Positions 1 through 40,771 of a stretch of DNA of 40,992 nt are shown here, piece after piece; positions within the stretch are counted from its first letter, which is position 1, and each line of letters starts with the position of its first letter. The notes below the pieces were generated by a model that searched no databases, was not told where the DNA came from, and saw only the letters and a program-made list of their open reading frames with translations. Origin of the DNA: a virus. The stretch spans positions 1 through 40,992 of IMG/VR virus record IMGVR_UViG_3300031985_000009, one strand, 5' to 3'. Position numbers and translations under genes: made by a program.

Positions 1-262
1 AAATCCAACCCCGAGCTGTTCCATCGTGGGCCTTATGATCGTCCGGGATGTGACAGTTAGGCATCACAGCACGTGCCGCATTCATACCGCTCAAAAACAC
101 AGCTTGCAGTGCGTGCTGAAAGCTGTGACCGCTATTTACCACCGCCGTGAAAACCTCGATGGCCTCTTGCTGGATCATGGCGCTTGTCTCTGACTCAAGT
201 TGGCATTTGTCGAGTCCTCGCGGAATCTTTGCCGAGTTTGCGCGCCTCACGCTAATCTGCAT
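1..262 (-). CDS. Cassette-region hypothetical protein, runs off the left edge
   Basis: The ATG at 260-262 lies just inside the end of the preceding Cys-rich frame, and the frame stays open for 87 codons to the edge of the window. I recognise no family. Its end reads MPNCHIPDD across an attC-like site at 3-62, as expected for a cassette gene whose stop lies at or beyond its recombination site. If base 1 is joined to base 40992, the frame runs seven more codons and stops with TGA at 40970-40972, overlapping the ATG of the gene starting at 40973, giving 94 residues. Seen: the open frame and overlap. Inferred: the circular junction. Confidence 0.6.
   Translation of the reverse strand, partial: MQISVRRANSAKIPRGLDKCQLESETSAMIQQEAIEVFTAVVNSGHSFQHALQAVFLSGMNAARAVMPNCHIPDDHKAHDGTARGWI
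3..62 (-). other. attC-like recombination site 0
   Basis: Read on the minus strand, the site starts with GCCTAAC (fits RYYYAAC) and ends with GTTGGAT (fits GTTRRRY), 60 bp in all. Inside, TGTCACATC and GATGGAACA can pair at eight of nine positions. The site lies within the end of the gene at 1-262 and precedes the next gene across the presumed junction. Spacing, both 7-mers and the imperfect hairpin fit an integron attC site. It lies in a coding frame, so chance is less easily excluded than for the sites at 444-500 and 923-992. Confidence 0.45.
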
Positions 263-443
263 TTTTGTAGTCCTCGCATTTCCGTTTCCATCCCCACTCA
301 TAATCGTGGATGTGTCGCGGTTTGAAAAATCTCGGCTTGTGGCCGAGTGTGCACGTCAGCACGCAGGTTTTTCACTGCCTGCCAGTCAAGATCGCTTCTT
401 CTATGGTCTTGTGCTGGCAGGTGTCGCAGTGTTTTGCCTTCAC
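252..443 (-). pseudogene. Small Cys-rich protein with an in-frame TGA
   Basis: A GTG at 441-443, directly after the attC end GTTAGGC, opens a frame reading VKAKHCDTCQHKTIEEAI and then TGA at 372-374. The same frame continues as KTCVLTCTLGHKPRFF and further to TAG at 252-254. The joined 62-residue product has CxxC and C-x3-C pairs and the GHKPRF segment that I associate with a family of small phage zinc-ribbon-like proteins, so the halves belong together. The TGA sits where one base change would give TGG (Trp). This is most simply a nonsense mutation or sequencing error; readthrough is possible. An initiator GTG without a clear Shine-Dalgarno makes the start tentative. Confidence 0.6.
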
Positions 444-500
444 GCCTAACTCTTCAGTCCAGCGGACGCAGGGCCGGCGCCGCTGACTTCTGCGTTCGAC
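444..500 (-). other. attC site (integron cassette recombination site)
   Basis: On the minus strand it starts with GTCGAAC (R'') and ends with GTTAGGC (R'), 57 bp apart. Between them AGTCAGCGG pairs with CCGCTGGACT over nine base pairs, leaving one unpaired G on one arm, which is the extrahelical-base signature of attC sites. The stop codon TAG of the gene at 446-895 lies inside GTTAGGC. Positions 467-496 are repeated exactly at 39829-39858. This is the best-formed of the attC candidates in the window. Confidence 0.75.
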
Positions 501-895
501 GGCTTCCGCCATGCACACGCAACAGGTTCAGCCATGATCCACAGGTGCCGCATGTTCGCCACATTCACCACGTCCGTATCAGCCGGGAAAACTTCGATTG
601 CATCGGCATCGCCGTATCCGCACTCGCGTTTCAGCCGTTGCAGGTCGTCCCATGCAATCCCGTCTTGCCAGCGGTCGCCGTCCAATGATGTGCGGCAAAT
701 CGACAGTCGTACCACAGCCGGCGCGGTGGCGGCAAACTCCTGTACGAGAAAATCCCGCGAGCGCAGTACACGCAATTGCGAGGTCACTCTGGCTGCTGGC
801 CATTGCTCGCGTGGCACTTCGCGCAGCACAGCAGGTAGCTTCGCGTTGTCTCGCTCAAGCTGTCTGCGCTGCGCCCTTGTCGTTGAAATTCCCAT
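446..895 (-). CDS. Cassette-borne hypothetical protein (DUF7694-like)
   Basis: A 149-residue protein starting at ATG 893-895 behind GAAAGGAC; an in-frame ATG at 914-916 has no better signal. The N-terminus RRQLERDNAK and the central block with NRT/CRT, W-x-D-GI-x-WDDLQRLKRECG and DVVNVANMRHLW resemble a phage family I know as DUF7694, whose function is unknown. The last residues, SNAEVSGAGPASAGLKS, are translated from the attC site at 444-500 and are not family sequence; the stop is inside the attC end. The start lies about 28 bases after the upstream attC-like site (923-992), as in integron cassettes. Confidence 0.75.
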   Translation of the reverse strand: MGISTTRAQRRQLERDNAKLPAVLREVPREQWPAARVTSQLRVLRSRDFLVQEFAATAPAVVRLSICRTSLDGDRWQDGIAWDDLQRLKRECGYGDADAIEVFPADTDVVNVANMRHLWIMAEPVACAWRKPSNAEVSGAGPASAGLKS

Positions 896-922
896 CACTG
901 TCCTTTCTTCGATCAACCAGCC

Positions 923-992
923 ATCGAATCCGTCATTCCACGCGGACCTAGCGCATAAAGCCGCGCAAGGCCGGTGAATTCAGGCGTTGGGC
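923..992 (-). other. attC-like recombination site, degenerate right core
   Basis: On the minus strand it begins with GCCCAAC, a perfect R'' core, followed by GCCTGAATTCACCGG, typical of many attC left arms. It folds into a long imperfect hairpin: CAC, CGG, CCT and GCGC pair in order with GCGC, AGG, CCG and GTG, and ATT pairs with AAT. Single T, C and G bases are left unpaired on the same arm, with a TGA/GAC unpaired box. The final core is degenerate (ATTCGAT where GTTRRRY is expected). The gene at 980-1255 stops (TGA) just after the R'' core. Confidence 0.65.
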
Positions 993-1255
993 ATCATGCT
1001 CCCCGCCTTTTTCGCCGCCAGTGTTTTCAACAGCCTCTCAATTTCCGCCACATCAAAAACACTGCGCGCACTGGCGGCCAATGCATCTACCTGGAGGTTC
1101 CCCAGCCGTTCGAGTGCCGCGATGTACTCACGCTGGGCCGCAACAATCTGCCGCAACCCAATGATTTCGTCGCGCCCTTCAGCCATAGCCCACGACTCCG
1201 GCGTCTCGCCCTTGTGCAGCATGGCGTATCCGTGCAGCCGATCCACAATATCCAT
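980..1255 (-). CDS. Cassette-borne small hypothetical protein
   Basis: I place the start at ATG 1253-1255 (MDIVDRLHGYAML, 91 residues). An upstream in-frame ATG at 1328-1330 would add 25 residues but translates the attC-like site at 1270-1360. The body is helical, with GRDEIIGLRQIVAAQREYIA and VAEIERLLKTLAA, resembling small phage coiled-coil proteins that begin with an I-x-RL helix; no function is known to me. It ends KKAGSMMPNA and stops in the attC R'' core, the same way its neighbours end. The start lies about 15 bases after the preceding attC end. Confidence 0.65.
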   Translation of the reverse strand: MDIVDRLHGYAMLHKGETPESWAMAEGRDEIIGLRQIVAAQREYIAALERLGNLQVDALAASARSVFDVAEIERLLKTLAAKKAGSMMPNA

Positions 1256-1269
1256 ATCGGCCGCATCAA

Positions 1270-1360
1270 GCCCAACAAGCGGGTCAATCGGGACCGGCGA
1301 ACAGCCGGCTTTGGTCTTGGCTGAGATCATCGCGCCGGCCCCTTACCCTGGACGTTAGAC
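1270..1360 (-). other. attC-like recombination site
   Basis: On the minus strand it begins GTCTAAC (1354-1360) and ends GTTGGGC (1270-1276), both perfect core matches, 91 bp overall. GGGGCCGGCG pairs with CGCCGGTCCC over ten positions with one G-T wobble, and outside it GGGT pairs with ACCC. It separates the 21-codon remnant at 1327-1392 from the gene starting at 1255. Length, cores and hairpin fit an attC site. Overlap with a possible upstream start of the next gene is the main ambiguity. Confidence 0.55.
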
Positions 1361-1392
1361 GCCATCATCGCCAGTCGCAGCAGTTCGTCCAT
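1327..1392 (-). pseudogene. 21-codon remnant of a methyltransferase-like cassette gene tail
   Basis: The ATG at 1390-1392 sits behind GGAGAGTAATC, overlapping the end of the DUF1367 gene, and encodes MDELLRLAMMASNVQGKGP before TGA at 1327-1329. Its first half matches the C-terminus of the gene at 39796-40446 (RDELLRLAMMAHNAEVSG), and the two DNA stretches align at about 1362-1391 and 39860-39889. It therefore looks like the last residues of that gene family left with its attC core (GTCTAAC) after the body was lost, and then given a ribosome site by its neighbour. It may still be translated but is unlikely to be functional. Confidence 0.6.
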
Positions 1393-4381: not shown

Positions 4382-4839
4382 GGCTTTTTGGGCCGCCGCC
4401 GATAGACCGTCTTGCCGTCCAGCACAAGCGTTTCAGCGCCGCCACTGTTACGGGAGGCATGCACGCGCCAGGCATGGTGGCCGAAGACGATCCTGAGGTG
4501 CTCGCAGCGGCGAGCCTGCCTTTGCGCATTCGTCAGAGGCGCCGGCGGCAAAGCGTCGCGCGCGTCGTCAGTACGGAACCAGTACAACGCTTGTGGTATT
4601 GCGCCAGTCCTGCGGTATCCGGCAATTCGCAGGATGCCGGCGGCATGCAGTTTGTTGAGCGCGCCCTTGGCCACGCCACGGGCGCAGAAGCAGGCCGCGG
4701 AAAGTTCCGCGTCGCTATACCGGCCGGGGTTGGCCTCCAGGTATTCGAGGATGCGCCGCATCGCCGGGGCCATGCGTTGGCGGATGCGCCAGTCGATGCG
4801 CCAGCCTTCTGCCGTGCGGAAGTGTGTGTGTTCGGCCAT
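4378..4839 (-). CDS. Winged-helix hypothetical protein
   Basis: A 153-residue protein with a probable winged-helix DNA-binding fold in its first 90 residues: MRRILEYLEANPGRYSDAE, then ACFCARGVAKGALNKLHAAG (recognition region) and a wing reading AGYRRTGAIPQALYWF. The C-terminal part is basic (QRQARRCEHLRIVFGHHAW, RRRPKKP). It lies between the Cro-like gene and the replication genes, so it could be a second regulator or an accessory replication protein; the sequence does not decide which. Confidence 0.65.
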   Translation of the reverse strand: MAEHTHFRTAEGWRIDWRIRQRMAPAMRRILEYLEANPGRYSDAELSAACFCARGVAKGALNKLHAAGILRIAGYRRTGAIPQALYWFRTDDARDALPPAPLTNAQRQARRCEHLRIVFGHHAWRVHASRNSGGAETLVLDGKTVYRRRPKKP

Positions 4840-4842
4840 GGG

Positions 4843-5058
4843 CTATTTGGCTTTGGCAGCCATCGGCCGACACCAGCCGCGCGGGATGCCACGGTCGGCA
4901 CGCAGGACGCCGAGCGTAGCCTCCTCGATGCGCAGCTGGGAGAGCGCCGGGATGCGGTTCGCGGTGAACCACAGGGACACCGACGGCTCGGACACGCCGA
5001 TTGCGCGGGCAAGAGCCCGCTGTGAGCCGAAATGGTGGAGGCATTGGAGTGGGGTCAT
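4843..5058 (-). CDS. Cro/YdaS-like HTH regulator
   Basis: A 71-residue protein that is mostly one helix-turn-helix domain: QRALARAIGVSEPSVSLWF, followed by NRIPALSQLRIEEAT, the arrangement of Cro and YdaS proteins. It is the first gene of the leftward replication operon and faces the rightward early operon, the position of Cro in lambdoid phages. Its ATG (5056-5058) lies six bases after a TAATCT -10 element, so the mRNA probably begins at or next to the start codon. No CI partner is present in the window. Confidence 0.8.
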   Translation of the reverse strand: MTPLQCLHHFGSQRALARAIGVSEPSVSLWFTANRIPALSQLRIEEATLGVLRADRGIPRGWCRPMAAKAK

Positions 5059-5064
5059 GCGGCC

Positions 5065-5093
5065 AGATTAGGCACACAAAACCGACGTGTCAA
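5065..5093 (-). promoter_or_regulatory. Leftward early promoter, leaderless for the Cro-like gene
   Basis: On the minus strand TTGACA (5088-5093), a 17-base spacer and TAATCT (5065-5070) form a near-consensus sigma70 promoter. Transcription would start about at the A of the ATG at 5058, so the message would lack a ribosome binding site. The element overlaps a TTAGGCA half-site shared with the operator of the rightward promoter. Confidence 0.75.
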
Positions 5094-5130
5094 GTATCCC
5101 AGCGTCGAAAAAAATTTTTTCGCAAACCCA

Positions 5131-5158
5131 TTGACTTCCGCTTTAGGCATCCTAAAAT
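5131..5158 (+). promoter_or_regulatory. Rightward early promoter with palindromic operator
   Basis: TTGACT (5131-5136), a 16-base spacer and TAAAAT (5153-5158) form a sigma70 promoter for the rightward early genes. A perfect palindrome, TTTAGG-CAT-CCTAAA (5142-5156), lies across the spacer and the -10 element and is the likely operator for the Cro-like regulator. Just upstream (5106-5121) an A-tract meets a T-tract, which would bend the DNA between the divergent promoters. Confidence 0.7.
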
Positions 5159-5331
5159 TGAGTCATCCGTCAGATGGACGGGCGGGTTGACAGGACCACC
5201 GGAAAGACGGGGGCCTGGGTCACTTACAGCCGAGCGTAGCGGTAGGCGTCATGGAACCCAGGAAGCGAGGACGCCGGGCGAACTAACAGGCGTGACAGCC
5301 GGAGAGACGGCCCCAACCAAAGGAGCAGGCA
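5159..5331 (+). other. Untranslated leader of the rightward early operon
   Basis: About 170 bases without a convincing gene. It holds a distant perfect dyad, CCTGGGT (5214-5220) with ACCCAGG (5256-5262), that could close a stem in the RNA. Two very short frames (5174-5239 and 5251-5286) lack ribosome sites. The leader ends in AAAGGAGCAGGCA ahead of the first gene. An antitermination or attenuation role is possible but not shown. Confidence 0.4.
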
Positions 5332-5523
5332 ATGTCGGAAATCATCAACGCGATCTGGGAATTGAGGACCATCTTCGTGTTCCTCGTCGGCGTCACTGCC
5401 GGCCTGGTGATCGCCACCATTCTGGTGGCGGCCCGGAAAAACGAGGAGGAAGACGGCCCGCCAACCATCCTCATTCTCCCGCCGGATGAGGCGCACCAGG
5501 CGGAAGTTCGGAGGCAGCCATGA
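5332..5523 (+). CDS. Small single-span membrane protein
   Basis: A 63-residue protein with a strong ribosome site (AAAGGAG). After a short N-terminal helix it has one hydrophobic span, IFVFLVGVTAGLVIATILV, followed by an acidic stretch (ARKNEEEDGPP) and a Pro-rich tail. It is the first gene after the rightward promoter. Function not recognised. The stop overlaps the next ATG by ATGA. Confidence 0.65.
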   Translation: MSEIINAIWELRTIFVFLVGVTAGLVIATILVAARKNEEEDGPPTILILPPDEAHQAEVRRQP

Positions 5524-5687
5524 ACTCGAACTGGACGTTGAGGTTCCCGCGCACCGGGCGCGAGGCATTTGGGCACGAGGTACGTTTTGAGCGCCGGCGC
5601 AGCCCTGAGTGGTTGGTGGGCGCGTGCGTCGCCATGCTGTATGCGTTCGTCGCCGGCCTGGTGGTGGGTGGGGCGATCCCATGGTAA
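5520..5687 (+). CDS. Small membrane protein
   Basis: A 55-residue frame starting in an ATGA overlap at 5520. A basic N-terminal half (FRRRSPEW-like, with VRFERRRSPEW) is followed by a single hydrophobic span, LVGACVAMLYAFVAGLVVGG. No family recognised. Coupled starts on both sides and a position between two early genes support it as real. Confidence 0.55.
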   Translation: MNSNWTLRFPRTGREAFGHEVRFERRRSPEWLVGACVAMLYAFVAGLVVGGAIPW

Positions 5688-5887
5688 GAATCCCCTACCC
5701 CATCCCGGAGCCGGACCGGAGCCAGCTCATGGAGGCCGGCAACGCCGCCGTCGAGGCGCTGAATCGCGACAGGCCTGCCTTGTGGCAGAAGCGGCACTCC
5801 GTCGTCGAGGAAGTGCTGAGCGTCATACAGGCCAAGCACGGAGTCGTCGAGCCGGACGGGCCGGAGACGAGAGAAGAACATGAGTGA
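5681..5887 (+). CDS. Small hypothetical early protein
   Basis: A 68-residue soluble protein beginning MVRIPYPIPEPDRSQLMEAG at 5681, overlapping the end of the previous gene by seven bases behind a GGTGGGG purine stretch. It is mostly helical (LWQKRHSVVEEVLSVIQAKH) with an acidic tail. An upstream in-frame GTG-region extension is rejected because it translates the opposite coding frame. No function recognised. Confidence 0.6.
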   Translation: MVRIPYPIPEPDRSQLMEAGNAAVEALNRDRPALWQKRHSVVEEVLSVIQAKHGVVEPDGPETREEHE

Positions 5888-5948: not shown

Positions 5949-6800
5949 ATGGAAACGAAGGAAACCAGTCACCACGCCGTCCCGCGCGTCTATGCGGCCA
6001 TCAACGCCGTGCAGCGCGCCCTGGCCCGCGAGGGCATTGAGAAGGGGCGGAAGAACGAGCAACAAGGATACCGGTTCCGCGGCATCGATGACATTTACAA
6101 CGCCGTGTCGCCGTTGCTGGGCGAGCACGGGCTGTGCATTTTGCCGCGCGTGTTGGCCCGCGCGTGCACCGAGCGCGCCACGGCAAACGGGCGTGCGCTG
6201 TTTTACGTGACGGTCGAGGTCGAGTTCGACTTCGTCTCATCCGAGGATGGGAGCCGGCACGTGGTCAAGACCTGGGGCGAGGCGATGGACAGCGCCGACA
6301 AGGCGACCAACAAGGCCATGAGCGCCGCGTACAAATACGCGGTCATGCAGGCGTTTGCGATCCCGACGGAGGGTGACAACGACGCGGACGCCAAGACGCA
6401 CGAAGTCGCCAAACTGGAGACCTACACCGCCGAGAAGCTGGCCAAGACCTATGCGGTCATGCCGGTATTTGCGATCCCGACGGAGGGTGACAGCACGCAC
6501 AAGGTCGCGCCGCATACCGCCGCTGCCAAGCCCGCCCAGTCTGCCCAACTGCAACCCTACCCCGCCGAGCAGATGGCCAAGAACATGCCCGTGTGGACGG
6601 AGATGATGCGCGCCGGCCGTAAAACCGCCGAGCAGATCGTCGCCATGGTGCGCAGCAGGTACACGCTCACGCCCGCCCAGGTGGAGGCGATCAAGGACGC
6701 CGGGACCCAGGCGCACGCTCATGAAGTCGACCCGTTCGTGGCCGAGATGGAAGCGGCGGAGCTGCGCGAACTCGAAGCTGATCAGCGGGGTGCGAAATGA
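5949..6800 (+). CDS. erf: ERF family single-strand annealing protein
   Basis: A 283-residue recombinase of the P22 Erf family, which anneals complementary single strands during phage recombination. Signature blocks are VYAAINAVQRALAREGIEK, QGYRFRGIDDIYNAVSPLL and KATNKAMSAAYKYAVMQAF. I chose the ATG at 5949 behind AGGAGAG; an ATG at 5880 in an overlap with the previous gene would add 23 residues. A segment of 38 residues is duplicated (near 6336-6378 and 6450-6492, YAVM-x-x-FAIPTEGD), lengthening the linker to the C-terminal helix. The next gene is its likely exonuclease partner. Confidence 0.88.
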   Translation: METKETSHHAVPRVYAAINAVQRALAREGIEKGRKNEQQGYRFRGIDDIYNAVSPLLGEHGLCILPRVLARACTERATANGRALFYVTVEVEFDFVSSEDGSRHVVKTWGEAMDSADKATNKAMSAAYKYAVMQAFAIPTEGDNDADAKTHEVAKLETYTAEKLAKTYAVMPVFAIPTEGDSTHKVAPHTAAAKPAQSAQLQPYPAEQMAKNMPVWTEMMRAGRKTAEQIVAMVRSRYTLTPAQVEAIKDAGTQAHAHEVDPFVAEMEAAELRELEADQRGAK

Positions 6801-25940: not shown

Positions 25941-26136
25941 ATGCCCTTTTCATCCCAAGAGCTTCAGGACGCGGGCAAGATCGCCCTCGATTTCTTCCTG
26001 AAGAACAACCCGATCGACCAGGTCGGCGTCGAGCGCCCGCTCATGAAGGCGCTGATGGCGAAGAAGAAGTCGTTCCCCGGCGGACGCCAGTTCGTCGTCG
26101 AACAACTGCGCTATCGCTATCAATCGAACTTCCAGT
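25941..26136 (+). CDS. Major capsid protein, exon 1
   Basis: The N-terminal 65 residues of the coat protein, starting MPFSSQELQDAGKIALDFFL behind AGGAGGCTCAA and reading through FPGGRQFVVEQLRYRY to SNFQ. The exon ends at T26136, the first base of a Trp codon completed by GG at 26543-26544. Without splicing the frame would stop at 26160-26162. The split protein joins to 355 residues, the usual size for this coat family, and the boundary restores QWYGFNGASVVTYNK, so I infer splicing. Confidence 0.85.
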
Positions 26137-26542
26137 TAATCAATAGCTGCCTTGCCTGGTAACAGGTAAGTGAAAACCGGTTGAATTGCTGGGAACCCCT
26201 TAGAGCCATGAACGCCACAACGCAGGTCGCAAGATCAAACGTGATGGCCAAAAAGCATCATGGATTGGGCAATCAGCAGGGAAGCCAGACGATGACGCAA
26301 GCAGAACTACATCGGCTCGTGAGATACCACCCGGAAACCGGCGCCTTTGTGCGGCTGGTTTTTGGCTCATTCGCTCGCCTGGAACCTTCAACGACTATCC
26401 CTTCGGGGAGTACGCCCAAGCGGGCGGAAGTGGCCGGCACCCATGAAAATGGGTGAAGATATAGTCTCGTCTGCCGTGAAAGCGGCAGCTGCCATCGCGC
26501 TGGTTGCGATGAGCGGGCCTGGCGTAGCGAACCAGGCTGAAG
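26137..26542 (+). ncRNA. Group I self-splicing intron in the major capsid gene
   Basis: About 406 nt. Conserved core elements are GAATTGCTGGGAACCCC (26183-26199) continuing into TTAGAGCC, GATTGGGCAATCAGCAG (26263-26279), an ACCCAT-GAAA-ATGGGT tetraloop hairpin just before GAAGATATAGTC (26455-26466, the P7-side motif), and three hairpins after it (CTGCCG/CGGCAG, CATCGC/GCGATG, CCTGG/CCAGG). P1 can form between CAGT at 26133-26136 and GCTG at 26146-26149, with the required terminal U-G pair. The intron ends in G26542. These features match phage group I introns. Confidence 0.88.
26292..26360 (+). pseudogene. Decayed HNH homing endonuclease start inside the intron
   Basis: Inside the group I intron a frame opens MTQAELHRLVRYHPETGAFV, which is the usual N-terminus of HNH homing endonucleases (helix, then Y-x-PETG). 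The HNH motif and DNA-binding repeats are missing. A short AHSLAW in another frame right after recalls the AHRLAW segment of these enzymes, suggesting an internal deletion. With no endonuclease the intron should splice but can no longer home on its own. Confidence 0.7.
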
Positions 26543-36708: not shown

Positions 36709-38369
36709 TGCCGCAGCCGACCCCATACACCCCGACGACGGACTTCTCGCAGCAGGAAGCCAATAACGCCTCGGGCCGCAGCACGGTCAACACGACAGCG
36801 CTCGATGCGGAGTTTGCCAACATCGAACATACCGTGGATGGCGTTTGCGCCAATCTGGCGCTGCTTCAGCGCGACGACGGGCGGCTGAAAGACCTCGCTT
36901 GCGAGTTGCACACGCTTTCGCCGGAAGTGCTGAATCTGATGGGCGGGTTCAACCTGCGCGGGTTGTGGGCGCCAGCAACGGCCTATGCGGTTAATGACAT
37001 TGCTTCAAGCGGCCCCTATACTTATGTTTGCACGTCTGCGCATACATCGGGCGGGTCGTTCAACGCTCAGTTCTGGATACAGTTCGGCTTCACGTCTGGC
37101 GCGGATGCAGCGCAAGCTGCGGCAGCGGCGCAGGTGAGCGCGACGAATGCGGCGGCGAGTGCGACATCTGCCAGCGAATCGGCAACGACCGCGACCACGC
37201 AAGCGACGAATGCGGCGGCGAGTGCGACATCTGCCAGCGGATCGGCAACGACCGCGTCAACGCAGGCGGGCAATGCCTCCACCAGCGCGACGAACGCCGC
37301 CAATAGCGCAAGTGCGGCGGCAGCAAGCGCGGCGAACCTGCCCAATGCGACAACGGCTGGCAGCGAGCGCTTTCTGCGCACGAACACCGCCGGCAATGCC
37401 TGGGAATACCAGACTGTATCGCAGGCAAGAGCCGCACTTGGCCTTGTAATCGGCACGGACGTGCAAGCCTTCGCGGCCTCGGCCACTCAAGCCGAAATGG
37501 AAGCAGGCACCGAAACGGCCATCCGTGCCATGACCCCGCAGCGGGTGGCGCAGGCAATTGCGGCGCGGGCGCTCATCGGCAGCACCACGGCGCATACCGG
37601 GGCTTATACCGTAGTAGCTACTGACCGGGGCAGGTTGATCGACGCAACGAGCGGGACATGGACGCTTACCCTGACGGCAGCGGCGACACTCGGCGCGGGA
37701 TTTGCTTTCGCGGTGCGCAACAGCGGGGCAGGCACGATCACCATCGACCCGAACGCCTCGGAACTGATTGACGGAGCGTCAACGCTGGCGCTGACGGCGG
37801 GGCAGTCGTGCTTGCTCGTCTGCAATGGCACCGCGTGGCGGACGGTGGGGTTGGCAGCCGCACCACCCAGTAACGGTCGTCTCCTCCGCATTACTCGGTA
37901 CACCACAGCGGGCAGTGGCACCTGGACACGCCCAGGAGATACGGTTTCTGTGCTGATCCGGGCAATTGGCGGCGGCGGCGGCGGCGGCGGCGTCGCCGGC
38001 GGCGGCAGCGGCGGCTATGGTGAATCATTTATCGCTTCGGCGGCGGCGTCGTATGCTTATGTAGTTGGAAGCGGCGGGGCTGTTGGCGCTAATGGCGGTA
38101 ACACGACCATTGCTGGTATTACAGCCGGCGGCGGCGGCGGCGCCGCCGGCGGCGGTGCGGGCGGCGGCACCACTGGTGCACAGTTAAACATTAGAGGTGG
38201 CGGCGGCAGCGAAAACAGCGGCGGCGGCGCGGGCGTATTTGGCGGCGGCGGCAGCGGCAGCACCAGCGGTGCGGGCGGCGCGGGCGTATTTGGCGGCGGC
38301 GGCGGCGCCGGCGGCGCCGGCGGCGGTGCGGGCGGCGCAGGTTATATCGAAATCTGGGAGTTCGCATAA
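36708..38369 (+). CDS. Tail fibre protein with Ala/Ser/Thr repeats and glycine-rich tip
   Basis: A 553-residue protein. The N-terminal 110 residues include TDFSQQEANNASGRSTVNTT and a carbohydrate-binding-like GLWAPATAYAVNDIA motif (tail attachment). Residues 125-230 are Ala/Ser/Thr repeats (ATSASESATTATTQATNAAA) forming a triple-stranded shaft. A strand-rich domain around 300-400 follows (GAYTVVATDRGRLIDATSGT, then TWTLTLTAAA). The last 130 residues are glycine-rich (GGGGGAAGGGAGGGTTG) and end GYIEIWEFA, the tip seen in receptor-binding fibres. It is followed by a DUF4376 gene. ATG 36708 overlaps the preceding TGA. Confidence 0.85.
   Translation: MPQPTPYTPTTDFSQQEANNASGRSTVNTTALDAEFANIEHTVDGVCANLALLQRDDGRLKDLACELHTLSPEVLNLMGGFNLRGLWAPATAYAVNDIASSGPYTYVCTSAHTSGGSFNAQFWIQFGFTSGADAAQAAAAAQVSATNAAASATSASESATTATTQATNAAASATSASGSATTASTQAGNASTSATNAANSASAAAASAANLPNATTAGSERFLRTNTAGNAWEYQTVSQARAALGLVIGTDVQAFAASATQAEMEAGTETAIRAMTPQRVAQAIAARALIGSTTAHTGAYTVVATDRGRLIDATSGTWTLTLTAAATLGAGFAFAVRNSGAGTITIDPNASELIDGASTLALTAGQSCLLVCNGTAWRTVGLAAAPPSNGRLLRITRYTTAGSGTWTRPGDTVSVLIRAIGGGGGGGGVAGGGSGGYGESFIASAAASYAYVVGSGGAVGANGGNTTIAGITAGGGGGAAGGGAGGGTTGAQLNIRGGGGSENSGGGAGVFGGGGSGSTSGAGGAGVFGGGGGAGGAGGGAGGAGYIEIWEFA
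37141..37256 (+). repeat. 63-bp tandem repeat in the fibre shaft
   Basis: Positions 37141-37203 and 37204-37256 repeat with a 63-base period and nearly identical sequence (one difference, A to G, in the compared part), encoding a 21-residue shaft unit. Such in-frame repeats can expand or contract and alter shaft length. Confidence 0.75.
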
Positions 38370-38961: not shown

Positions 38962-39006
38962 GTTCAACATTGGCTAGGCCCGTTTTTCAGACCTTCGGCG
39001 TTATGC
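38962..39006 (-). other. attC-like site ending the methyltransferase-like gene
   Basis: On the minus strand the site starts GCATAAC (39000-39006) and ends GTTGAAC (38962-38968), 45 bp. A weak stem (AGGTC with GGCCT) forms inside. The gene's TGA stop lies in GTTGAAC. Most of the site, from GCCGAAG to TGTTGAACG, is repeated at 39740-39787 on the other side of the gene. It is short for attC, so the match is partly inference from the paired repeat. Confidence 0.5.
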
Positions 39007-39749
39007 GCCTGCCGTGCTATCGAAAGCAGCAGGTCGCGGAAAGGCTCTGGCGTCGCGTTGCGGATCGCGGTCTTGTTCGCCCCGCCCACCATCGCCACTA
39101 CTCCGATGCGCCTGGCCTTCTCGTATCCGTAGCGCTCGATCATCCATTCCGGCAGGCGTTGCTTGCCCTTAGTCCAATTCAGATCCGGCAGGTCTTCGCG
39201 GCCCACGCCGAACACCAACAGCCACGTCGGCTTTCTGCTCGCGTGGCCATAGTGACCCTGCTCCACGTAGCAGGTGCGCAGACCGAGGTCGTCGGCATCC
39301 TGCCAGCCCGCCCCGCGCTTCGGCGCCCTCAGGCCGAAGAAGGCCCATGCCCTCGAATCGGCTGGGTGCTCCAGCACGCCGCCGTATCTGCGCACGGCCG
39401 TCAGCGCCGCGGCAAAGCAACCCCCGTCGTCACCCAGTTTGTACTGGTGCGGCTTGCGCGTGCTGCCATGCCAGAACCGCCCCCATCGCTGGTATGGCGG
39501 GTGTGCCACCACGGGGTGCGGGCCATCGTAGGCGCGTGCGTCGCGGGCCTCGTCCCATGGGTCAACGCATGGCACGCCCACATAACAGCCCTTCGGCTCC
39601 ACGAACAGCGCTGCCACTGTTCGTAGTCCAGCCTGTGGCATTGCCCGTTTGTCGATCGGAATGCCATCGGCGGGCGGCGCCGTGCCGTCGGCCATGGCCA
39701 GCGAGTCAAGATGATCATGCGTCATGGTGTCCAGCAGATCGTTCAACAT
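38964..39749 (-). CDS. Methyltransferase-like paralogue, motif Cys replaced by Tyr
   Basis: A 261-residue frame starting at ATG 39749 inside the upstream attC-like repeat; starts at 39725 or later are possible. It shares with the gene at 39796-40446 the blocks ALFVEPKGCYVG, DPWDEARDARAY, PVVAHPP, GGCFAAALTAVRRYGGVLEH and HASRKPTWL. In related phage proteins the HPPC segment and the later EHP resemble the PCQ and ENV motifs of cytosine-C5 methyltransferases. Here the sequence is HPPYQRWG, so the catalytic-type cysteine is absent. The last residues (HNAEGLKNGPSQC) are attC-derived. Activity is doubtful. Confidence 0.7.
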   Translation of the reverse strand: MLNDLLDTMTHDHLDSLAMADGTAPPADGIPIDKRAMPQAGLRTVAALFVEPKGCYVGVPCVDPWDEARDARAYDGPHPVVAHPPYQRWGRFWHGSTRKPHQYKLGDDGGCFAAALTAVRRYGGVLEHPADSRAWAFFGLRAPKRGAGWQDADDLGLRTCYVEQGHYGHASRKPTWLLVFGVGREDLPDLNWTKGKQRLPEWMIERYGYEKARRIGVVAMVGGANKTAIRNATPEPFRDLLLSIARQAHNAEGLKNGPSQC

Positions 39750-39862
39750 TGGCTAGGCCCAGTTTTTCCGGCGCTGGTTACTTCGGCGTTGAGATTCACA
39801 TGCCGCCGCATCTGCGCTGTTCAGTAGTCGCAGGGCCGGCGCCGCTGACTTCTGCGTTATGT
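39741..39862 (-). other. Double attC-like region between the two paralogues
   Basis: Two attC-like elements lie end to end. The first begins at 39862 with ACATAAC and the 30 bases shared exactly with 467-496 of the attC at 444-500. The second begins TCTCAAC (39788-39794) and ends GTTGAAC (39741-39747), with an inner CCAG/CTGG stem; it shares its right half with 38962-39006. The arrangement suggests fusion of two cassette ends. The first lacks a clear final core. Confidence 0.5.
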
Positions 39863-40446
39863 GCCATCATCGCCAAGCGCAGCAGTTCGTCCCGAAATTC
39901 CAAAGGCGTGGCGTTCGCCTCTCTCCTGCCGAGTGTCGGCTTGTTCGCGGCCTTCCCGCGCCGATCGTGAAAACCGATCTGGTGCGTTCCTTCCGGCCGA
40001 TCCCACCGAAGTCCAAACGGCTGGTTCGTGCCGTGGTAGTACAGCCACGTAGCCTTGTTCGCTCGGTGGCCGTAGGCGCTTTGCCAAACCTCGCACACCC
40101 ACCCTCCATCTATGGTGCGCTGCCAGCCAATTGCAGCCGGTTGCGCCAGTCCGTGCGCTGCCCATGCTTTCGTTTTCGCCGGGTGTTCGAGCACACCGCC
40201 AAAACGCCGCACGCTATCCAGTGCCGCTGCAAAACACCCGCCGTCGTTGCCAGGCTTGTTGTGCTCGCCGCCCCATCGGGCATGGTTCACATCCGCCATC
40301 GCGCCCCACAATTGGCACGGCGGGTGCGCCACCACCGGCAGCGGCCCGGTGTATTTCCTTGCGTCCCGCGCTTCCGGCCAAGCATCAACGTCCGGCAATC
40401 CCGCGTAGCATCCGTCCGGCTGCACAAACAGTGCGGCTAGTCGCAT
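39796..40446 (-). CDS. Methyltransferase-like cassette protein
   Basis: A 216-residue protein starting MRLAALFVQPDGCYAGLPDV at 40446 (a longer start at 40491 adds unrelated residues). PVVAHPPCQLWG resembles the PCQ loop of C5-cytosine methyltransferases, and GGVLEHPAKTKAW the ENV region; I regard the assignment as tentative because the AdoMet glycine motif is weak (QPDGCYAG). The family is common in phages and gene cassettes and lacks a proven activity. It ends RDELLRLAMMAHNAEVSG and runs through the attC-like core. It shares its tail with the remnant at 1327-1392. Confidence 0.7.
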   Translation of the reverse strand: MRLAALFVQPDGCYAGLPDVDAWPEARDARKYTGPLPVVAHPPCQLWGAMADVNHARWGGEHNKPGNDGGCFAAALDSVRRFGGVLEHPAKTKAWAAHGLAQPAAIGWQRTIDGGWVCEVWQSAYGHRANKATWLYYHGTNQPFGLRWDRPEGTHQIGFHDRRGKAANKPTLGRREANATPLEFRDELLRLAMMAHNAEVSGAGPATTEQRRCGGM

Positions 40447-40456
40447 AGCACGGCGG

Positions 40457-40771
40457 TCAACACAGCCGCCTGCCAGCGGCGATTCGTGCATTCATTCCGC
40501 TCACGCTGATGTCGACTTCCCCCCCCCCGGCCTGCTCAAACGTCTGGCACGGCGATGTGTCGTCCCACCAGACCCTGTGACATTCTGGCAGGCGAACACT
40601 CTTTGCCCGCACGCCCCAACTCACCTCGTAGTAGGCTTTGGGCATTTTCTCGGGCCAGGTAATCGGATATGCGCAATGCCCAGGCTGACTGCGCGGTAAG
40701 GCCCGACCGGTTTTGGGGTTACGATCTGGCCGATAGTGCTTGCAGTCGATGCAGAGAGTGTTGCCGGTCAT
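40457..40771 (-). CDS. Cys-rich small protein of the accessory block
   Basis: A 104-residue protein starting MTGNTLCIDCKHYRPDRNPK behind GAGGCACCC. Cysteines C7, C10, C33 and others (PGHCAYPITW, LPECHRVW, SPCQTFE) suggest a zinc-binding fold common to small phage proteins. After QTFEQ the DNA has a run of ten G bases and the protein becomes unrelated (GGGEVDISVSG), so the natural end is probably near the run and a shift in its length would change the tail. The 20-residue upstream extension to 40831 is not used. Confidence 0.65.
   Translation of the reverse strand: MTGNTLCIDCKHYRPDRNPKTGRALPRSQPGHCAYPITWPEKMPKAYYEVSWGVRAKSVRLPECHRVWWDDTSPCQTFEQAGGGEVDISVSGMNARIAAGRRLC

Follow-up and report, generated by a model that had tools for sequence, protein, structure and literature searches.

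A cassette block with inverted attC polarity in an IMG/VR virus contig and in related phage arrays

Sites and genes of the cassette block

The contig IMGVR_UViG_3300031985_000009 of IMG/VR (40,992 bp; the whole stretch was analysed and is called here the window) carries terminase and portal genes, and the genes at its two ends are both on the minus strand. An earlier interpretation made from the letters alone (the sequence-only reading) had described in it an accessory block of integron-like gene cassettes bounded by recombination sites (attC). Such sites were searched with a directional covariance model, R1, built from intI-bearing integrons of one betaproteobacterial order, in which 63 of 150 sampled genomes encode the integrase IntI. 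A rule-based scan of the arrays beside 20 intI genes and of two earlier loci gave 85 sites, 54 of which were used for R1. In the window, R1 recognizes three attCs, all on the plus strand, at 444-500 (52.7 bits, E 5e-11), 923-992 (34.2 bits, E 2e-6) and 1270-1360 (25.9 bits, E 2e-4). The best remaining match in the window reaches 12.2 bits (E 0.55) and nothing else rises above noise.

The site 444-500 reads on its top strand GCCTAAC TCTTCA GTcCAGCGG..CCGCTGAC TTCTGC GTTCGAC, where the cleavage core (R') corresponds to 494-500. The site 1270-1360 is composed of R'' GCCCAAC, GTcAATCGG../..CCCCTTAC and R' GTTAGAC (1354-1360), and its loop contains the ATG (1330) of the open reading frame (ORF) 980-1330. 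The site 923-992, similar to the host sites L207:2937 and L216:2376, joins a decayed R'' ATCGAAT (923-929) to a perfect R' GTTGGGC (986-992). The consensus boxes RYYYAAC and GTTRRRY are both matched by 1270-1360, and each of the other two attCs departs from one box, 444-500 in R' (GTTCGAC) and 923-992 in R'' (ATCGAAT). The L''/L' stem with its extrahelical base and the unpaired central spacers are present in the window attCs; 444-500 was also folded as bottom strand. The sequence-only reading had assigned the sites to the minus strand, which is not correct: the extrahelical base of L'' (the c of GTcCAGCGG in 444-500 and of GTcAATCGG in 1270-1360) is on the plus strand. The three attCs lie within 917 bp. 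No integron integrase had been in view for the same reading, and the contig has no match to the integrase model TIGR02249. Under R1, which is not the model of IntegronFinder, this is the composition of a cluster of attC sites lacking an integrase (CALIN) and not that of a complete integron, which comprises intI and attI. A first hand-made scanner, superseded by the covariance model, had placed only 444-500 above its threshold. Rfam at gathering thresholds detected no attC in the window and only a group I intron, described below; folding energies compared with shuffles were uninformative.

Two cassettes are delimited by these sites. Cassette 1 (unit 987-1354) comprises the attC 1270-1360 and a minus-strand gene at 980-1330 that encodes 116 amino acids and has an alternative in-frame ATG at 1255; the protein ends in ..MMPNA and the TGA (980-982) is just past the core GCCCAAC. 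Cassette 2 (unit 495-986) contains the minus-strand gene 446-916, which matches DUF7694 and phrog_7839 (Pfam 3.3e-17, PHROG 5.2e-22). The C-terminus of its product, SNAEVSGAGPASAGLKS, is translated attC, and its TAG (446-448) is included in GTTAGGC. The attC 444-500 is followed by a small Cys-rich reading frame (251-440, minus strand) with one in-frame TGA, possibly a decayed gene, a sequencing error or two genes. The stops at the cores had been correctly described, and the protein ends SNAEVSG, HNAEVSG, HNAEGLK and MMPNA are indeed translated attC or attC-like sequence.

At the other end of the window, two minus-strand genes belong to the family phrog_12600 by PHROG match. The first (39796-40491, 231 amino acids) has, over 40450-39856, 82% identity with the cassette closest to attI in the phage L266. 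The similarity ends at the AAC of the core 39856-39862 (..CATAAC on the minus strand), past which the window runs into the attC-like half-site GCAGAAGTCAGCGG and L266 into the attI sequence TTAAATTCAACGACACC. This gene is therefore a cassette of the phage pool, although its own site has decayed. The second gene (38964-39749, 261 amino acids) has a C-terminus, HNAEGLKNGPSQC, read from 38962-39006; in large phage arrays its relatives are placed behind attCs. Both proteins display the conserved motifs HPPC and EHP of this uncharacterised family, which is common in phage cassettes. For phrog_12600 no Pfam match and no solved structure related by sequence were found. The AlphaFold model has a predicted local distance difference test score (pLDDT) of 75.6, and its Foldseek matches are weak (E 0.06 and above), with C5-cytosine DNA methyltransferases first; a methyltransferase-like role is a lead from the model, not a result.

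The sequence-only reading had listed six attC-like sites. R1 confirms three of them at exactly the coordinates that had been given, and misses the three others, which score at most 6.3 bits, all on the plus strand. The candidate 3-62 (5.9 bits), with a core-like GCCTAAC on the minus strand and no visible attC stem, is possibly cut by the contig end. The degenerate repeat 38962-39006 (2.8 bits, weak stem) has 20 nt in common with 39741-39760, and an 18-mer of these two repeats (GCCTAGCCAATGTTGAAC) has no known relatives, its sole match being one unrelated AT-rich contig. Concerning the stretch 39741-39862, its first part (39741-39790, at most 6.3 bits, weak stem) occupies the place where relatives carry the attC of the phrog_12600 cassette, and its second part (39819-39862, 4.0 bits) is half an attC, with 30 nt identical to 467-496 and the other half lost. 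As a whole this stretch is unsupported as an attC, but the core 39856-39862 is a genuine cassette boundary.

Polarity of cassette genes and attC sites

Of the 85 sites that the rule-based scan gave in true arrays, 82 have the extrahelical base on the top strand, which is that of the array. Since this base is on the plus strand in the window and the genes are on the minus strand, the window genes are antisense to their attCs. A betaproteobacterial reference locus, L195 (VGIF01000130), contains intI at 4702-5646 (minus strand) and the core of its attI at 5818; an attC located at 6324-6380 shares about 90% identity with the window site 444-500. The top strand of this attC is directed away from intI, which fixes the polarity of the site type. 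The classic layout, in which the ORF lies on the attC top strand and which the sequence-only reading had recognized here, must be replaced by its opposite: every gene is inverted relative to its attC.

This polarity was counted from the longest ORF contained within each cassette unit, on the same or on the opposite strand to the attC. Chromosomal units gave 55 same-strand and two opposite-strand ORFs, and phage units 19 and 55, respectively (Fisher test, 6e-18). The 48 opposite-strand phage ORFs compared matched seven Pfam and 47 PHROG families, including DNA methyltransferases, RNA ligase, HNH proteins and 3'-phosphoadenosine 5'-phosphosulfate (PAPS) reductase, and the 48 same-strand ORFs matched none. 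A count of the longest ORFs without unit limits did not separate the strands (44:30), because antisense frames run long in GC-rich DNA. The ORF start lies within the attC in 32 of 75 units, and the stop of many cassettes is the TAA of the core itself. The cassettes are thus inverted, with the attC at the 5' end of the gene.

The same layout is seen in other viral contigs. Several other phage loci and one chromosomal integron contain about 51 nt of the site 444-500 at 82-90% identity, and the 18-mer AACGCAGAAGTCAGCGGC of this site occurs in ten other viral contigs, nine of which have the same site, mostly beside different genes. The locus L168 looks like a chance 18-mer match. In the surroundings of 80 relatives of the window phrog_12600 gene, R1 finds 94 attCs, 93 of which are on the strand opposite to the gene; in those of 80 unrelated DnaB relatives (746 kb) used as control, only one contig has an array (L024, 1-1027, three attCs). 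The DnaB relatives include no close kin of the window (identity of 38% or less). Dozens of IMG/VR contigs have the inverted layout, with up to 18 attCs per whole contig, and the contig of the largest array (G164) also carries terminase (TerL), portal, tape-measure, tail and tail-fibre genes. No IntI passes the family cut-off in any of the 24 array contigs of this set.

A phage integrase clade, its attI and cassette turnover

The search of bacterial genomes with phrog_12600 led to an array of eight attCs in the contig C13 of the genome G111 (L240, G111:C13:1-6000), whose recognisable genes are inverted. Directly after the array come intI, a gene resembling excisionases and a tyrosine integrase of phage type. 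From this gene order, L240 is likely a betaproteobacterial prophage holding a complete mirrored integron. The same host genome also contains two further, ordinary integrons.

The IntI of L240 has 60 relatives in IMG/VR, and 36 of their contigs carry arrays. With the prophage included, 128 of 130 attC matches are on the same strand relative to intI, and the unit ORFs are found 55 times on the opposite strand and 21 times on the same strand. Among sampled ORFs, phage families were matched by four of five on the opposite strand and by none of five on the same strand. In the phylogenetic tree, a single clade (ultrafast bootstrap 99, Shimodaira-Hasegawa-like approximate likelihood ratio test 98) groups 40 phage IntIs, which are 55-69% identical to the nearest chromosomal IntI among those sampled; one IntI served as seed for the phage set, and the chromosomal IntIs come mainly from one order. 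The exceptions are L271, which pairs with a metagenome-assembled genome (MAG) of Thiobacillus, and three long-branch rows. L170 and L271 are parts of the same 43-kb phage contig (IMGVR_UViG_3300048837_002364), with a phage-type attC at one end and intI with its array at the other; the L271 IntI is nearly identical to the Thiobacillus MAG IntI and lies outside the phage clade.

In 21 loci a variable gene that ends in ..AAC gives way, exactly after AAC, to the conserved sequence TTAAATTCNNCGACACC (attI), with intI next to it in the intI-oriented loci. In the integrase-bearing relatives the array is seated at this conserved attI, immediately upstream of intI, and the cassette genes and intI have the same direction.

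Near-identical phages differ by whole cassettes. Such differences separate the pairs L087/L088, L257/L260, L263/L264 and L267/L268, and in the last three pairs identical or almost identical intI regions accompany different cassettes. Over 7.1 kb (12.7 kb in the fuller contigs) L087 and L088 share 99.97% identity, and they diverge exactly after GGGCCTAAC. Other junctions are TGCTAAC|GCAGAG against TGCTAAC|GTTCGAG at a core and, at the attI, GTCGGCCAAC|TTAAATTC against TTGGCTTAAC|TTAAATTC. Fourteen of the 15 breakpoints lie at 15 nt or less from a core, for 0.97 expected, a difference whose p-value is indicative only, the breakpoints being partly paired and not independent. The outlier, L264:6628, is 544 nt from a model match and its own attC was undetected, but its sequence reads TCTCAAC|GCATG. 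One cassette is common to L087 and L167 (92.7% identity), and all its ends are located 10-12 nt from cores. Not all differences between these phages can be cassette events, since L234 and L235 part on the left away from a core. The assemblies L088/L089 and L267/L269, made separately, are concordant. Gene boundaries at the cores, for which the sequence-only reading had proposed to look in relatives, are there.

A bacterial integron also contains a cassette of this type. The first cassette of L195 (5818-6380) is inverted, with an N6-adenine methyltransferase-like gene on the minus strand, and the later cassettes are normal. This inverted gene stops with the TAA of the core on the attI side, and a phage-type attC lies at its 5' end. 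Relatives of this methyltransferase, 67-88% identical, are found in the phage contigs L204 to L206 directly behind attC-like sites, two of which score with R1. At 2953-3200 of L206, a methyltransferase cassette is cut to its C-terminal third and is still directly behind an attC. L195 is the clearest host case of a phage-type cassette in a bacterial integron, the direction of transfer being not proven.

The sequence-only reading was right on integron-like cassettes in a phage whose contig lacks the integrase, and the possible exchange with host integrons has more support here than the letters alone could give. Capture from host integrons, the source that had been suggested, is probably wrong for the window cassettes, because normal host cassettes would enter with the opposite gene polarity and the inverted cassettes seen here belong to a pool of phage cassettes that has an IntI clade, a conserved attI and phage cargo of its own.

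A proposed mirrored integron system and its alternatives

The window block is very probably a short, partly decayed cassette array from a phage integron system, the mirror image of the bacterial one. In this system a cassette is made up of an attC and, behind it, a single gene encoded on the bottom strand of that attC; it extends from the cut point AA|C of a core box to the next AA|C and often has its TAA stop at the cut point itself. Translation could start from the attC loop. The position of the array upstream of an intI of the same direction would allow it to be read, as one transcript, from the upstream phage operon toward intI, where bacterial integrons are read outward from the promoter Pc. 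The integron integrase would fold the bottom strand of attC, cut it at the core and insert, excise or swap cassettes at attI or attC. Since the window contig has no intI, its cassettes would need an integrase present in the same cell, from the host, a prophage or a co-infecting phage. In the window, the genes lie on the attC bottom strand in units from AA|C to AA|C, and the 231-aa gene shares its core boundary at 39856 with L266; the phage-clade IntI and the TTAAATTC-type attI are encountered in relatives only. The recognisable cargo consists mostly of DNA-modification and nucleotide-metabolism genes, which suggests that the likely benefit is a quick reshuffling of counter-defence genes.

Several observations weigh against this interpretation. 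Neither intI (searched with TIGR02249) nor attI was found in the window contig, the R'' of one window attC is mutated, the R' of another reads GTTCGAC in place of GTTRRRY, the sites 3-62, 38962-39006 and 39741-39862 fail as attC under R1, and the frame 251-440 behind the attC 444-500 has an in-frame stop; together these features indicate that the window copy may be a fossil. The E-values stem from our shortened model R1 and not from that of IntegronFinder, and the partial pairing of the breakpoints reduces the weight of their count. Moreover, a terminase was detected on only about 15 of 40 contigs tested (two or three families searched), so that the viral label of some array contigs rests on IMG/VR.

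A loss of intI and attI followed by decay of the sites would make the window array a non-functional remnant of a phage integron. This explanation, compatible with the mirrored system for the family as a whole, is a serious possibility for the window copy, though somewhat short of even. The contig without intI or attI, the degenerate R'' at 923-929, the half-site 39819-39862, the weak repeats at 38962 and 39741 and the stop behind 444-500 are in its favour, but 444-500 is as good as the sites of true arrays, the half-site keeps an intact core, and the contig is not marked complete and could continue into an intI. An ordinary CALIN, formed of normal cassettes captured from a host chromosomal integron and carried passively, would explain the close resemblance of the window attCs to betaproteobacterial ones and the fact that the five bacterial MAGs with the 444-500 site type all encode IntI (42% in the order), and phage CALINs have been published (PMC9892861). 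It is nevertheless improbable, as gene and attC have opposite directions in the window and its relatives and a phage-specific IntI clade and attI exist.

An ERF-type annealing protein homologue is encoded in the window near 6000-6400 and attCs of one array can be alike, hence recombination between short common repeats, homologous or by annealing, could be imagined in place of site-specific integration. However, the alternative junctions at the core given above have only the core box in common, attI and the incoming attC are alike only in AAC, and intI is present in these phages, which makes this process unlikely. The hairpins could also be RNA elements of phage operons (leaders, terminators or translational control) that only resemble attC: they lie between consecutive genes and hold the ORF start in the units counted above, and an added regulatory role is plausible. 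As a complete explanation this is very improbable, because the sites score with a model of true recombination sites that includes the extrahelical base, cassettes are gained and lost exactly at the core, and the sites abut a conserved attI beside intI. Finally, the contigs are metagenomic and several are short, and they could be mislabelled bacterial integrons or mis-assemblies at repeats, but terminase, portal and tail genes occur on the same contigs, separate assemblies are concordant and chromosomal arrays hardly ever show the inverted polarity; an artefact is very improbable.

Integrons are viewed as bacterial devices with cassettes read outward from one promoter, the selectivity for the attC bottom strand ensuring their orientation (PMC8946536). 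The class 1 mobile integron (IntI1, attI1, Pc) has the core cut G|TTRRRY and the bottom-strand attC logic (PMC8946536), in which the phage arrays are alike; its Pc reads outward from intI, and inverted cassettes would be antisense to it. The sedentary chromosomal integrons of Betaproteobacteria resemble the phage system in their attC type, the attI beside intI and an array extending away from the intI start. They differ from it by genes that run in the direction of the attC (55 of 57 units) and a divergent intI, whereas the phage genes run against the attC and toward intI. In the 'reverse' integrons of the Treponema type, intI is flipped and gene and attC are parallel; the unusual intI orientation is similar, but gene and attC are antiparallel in the phages.

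Phage genomes with integrase-less attC clusters and DNA methyltransferase cassettes were described by Qi et al. 2023 (PMC9892861), who found that IntI1 recombined five of six tested phage attCs and who reported TJE1 and PH101 with the typical bacterial layout. The phage MW202573 of that study has the inverted layout under R1, and a text search of PMC9892861 gave no mention of inverted gene polarity. The complete integrons in that work belong to the host type or to class 1 (PMC9892861), in contrast to the phage IntI clade with its own attI found here. In the open-licence PMC papers searched we found no report of the inverted polarity, the phage IntI clade or the phage attI, and the mirrored geometry, the integrase clade and the cassette turnover appear to be new.

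On these data, phages of Betaproteobacteria probably own a separate integron lineage, with its IntI clade, conserved attI and inverted cassettes, which would serve as a shared and active store of genes for DNA modification and other counter-defence; the gene polarity would act as an expression barrier between the phage and bacterial pools, occasionally crossed as in L195. If so, this lineage keeps the same chemistry with every gene flipped, as an integron rebuilt for the viral operon. The reshuffling of DNA-modification genes by phages against host defence, the origin of the inverted cassettes in bacterial integrons and the role of polarity as separator of two cassette pools become testable, and the near-identical phages that differ by whole cassettes are natural experiments for turnover rates.

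Two other features of the window were observed. The group I intron (Rfam RF00028, 84.4 bits) is located at 26127-26488 on the plus strand, within the structural gene region. In the tail region, a gene contains a 63-nt tandem repeat and long GGC repeats coding for Gly/Ala (37140-37265 and 37957-38346).

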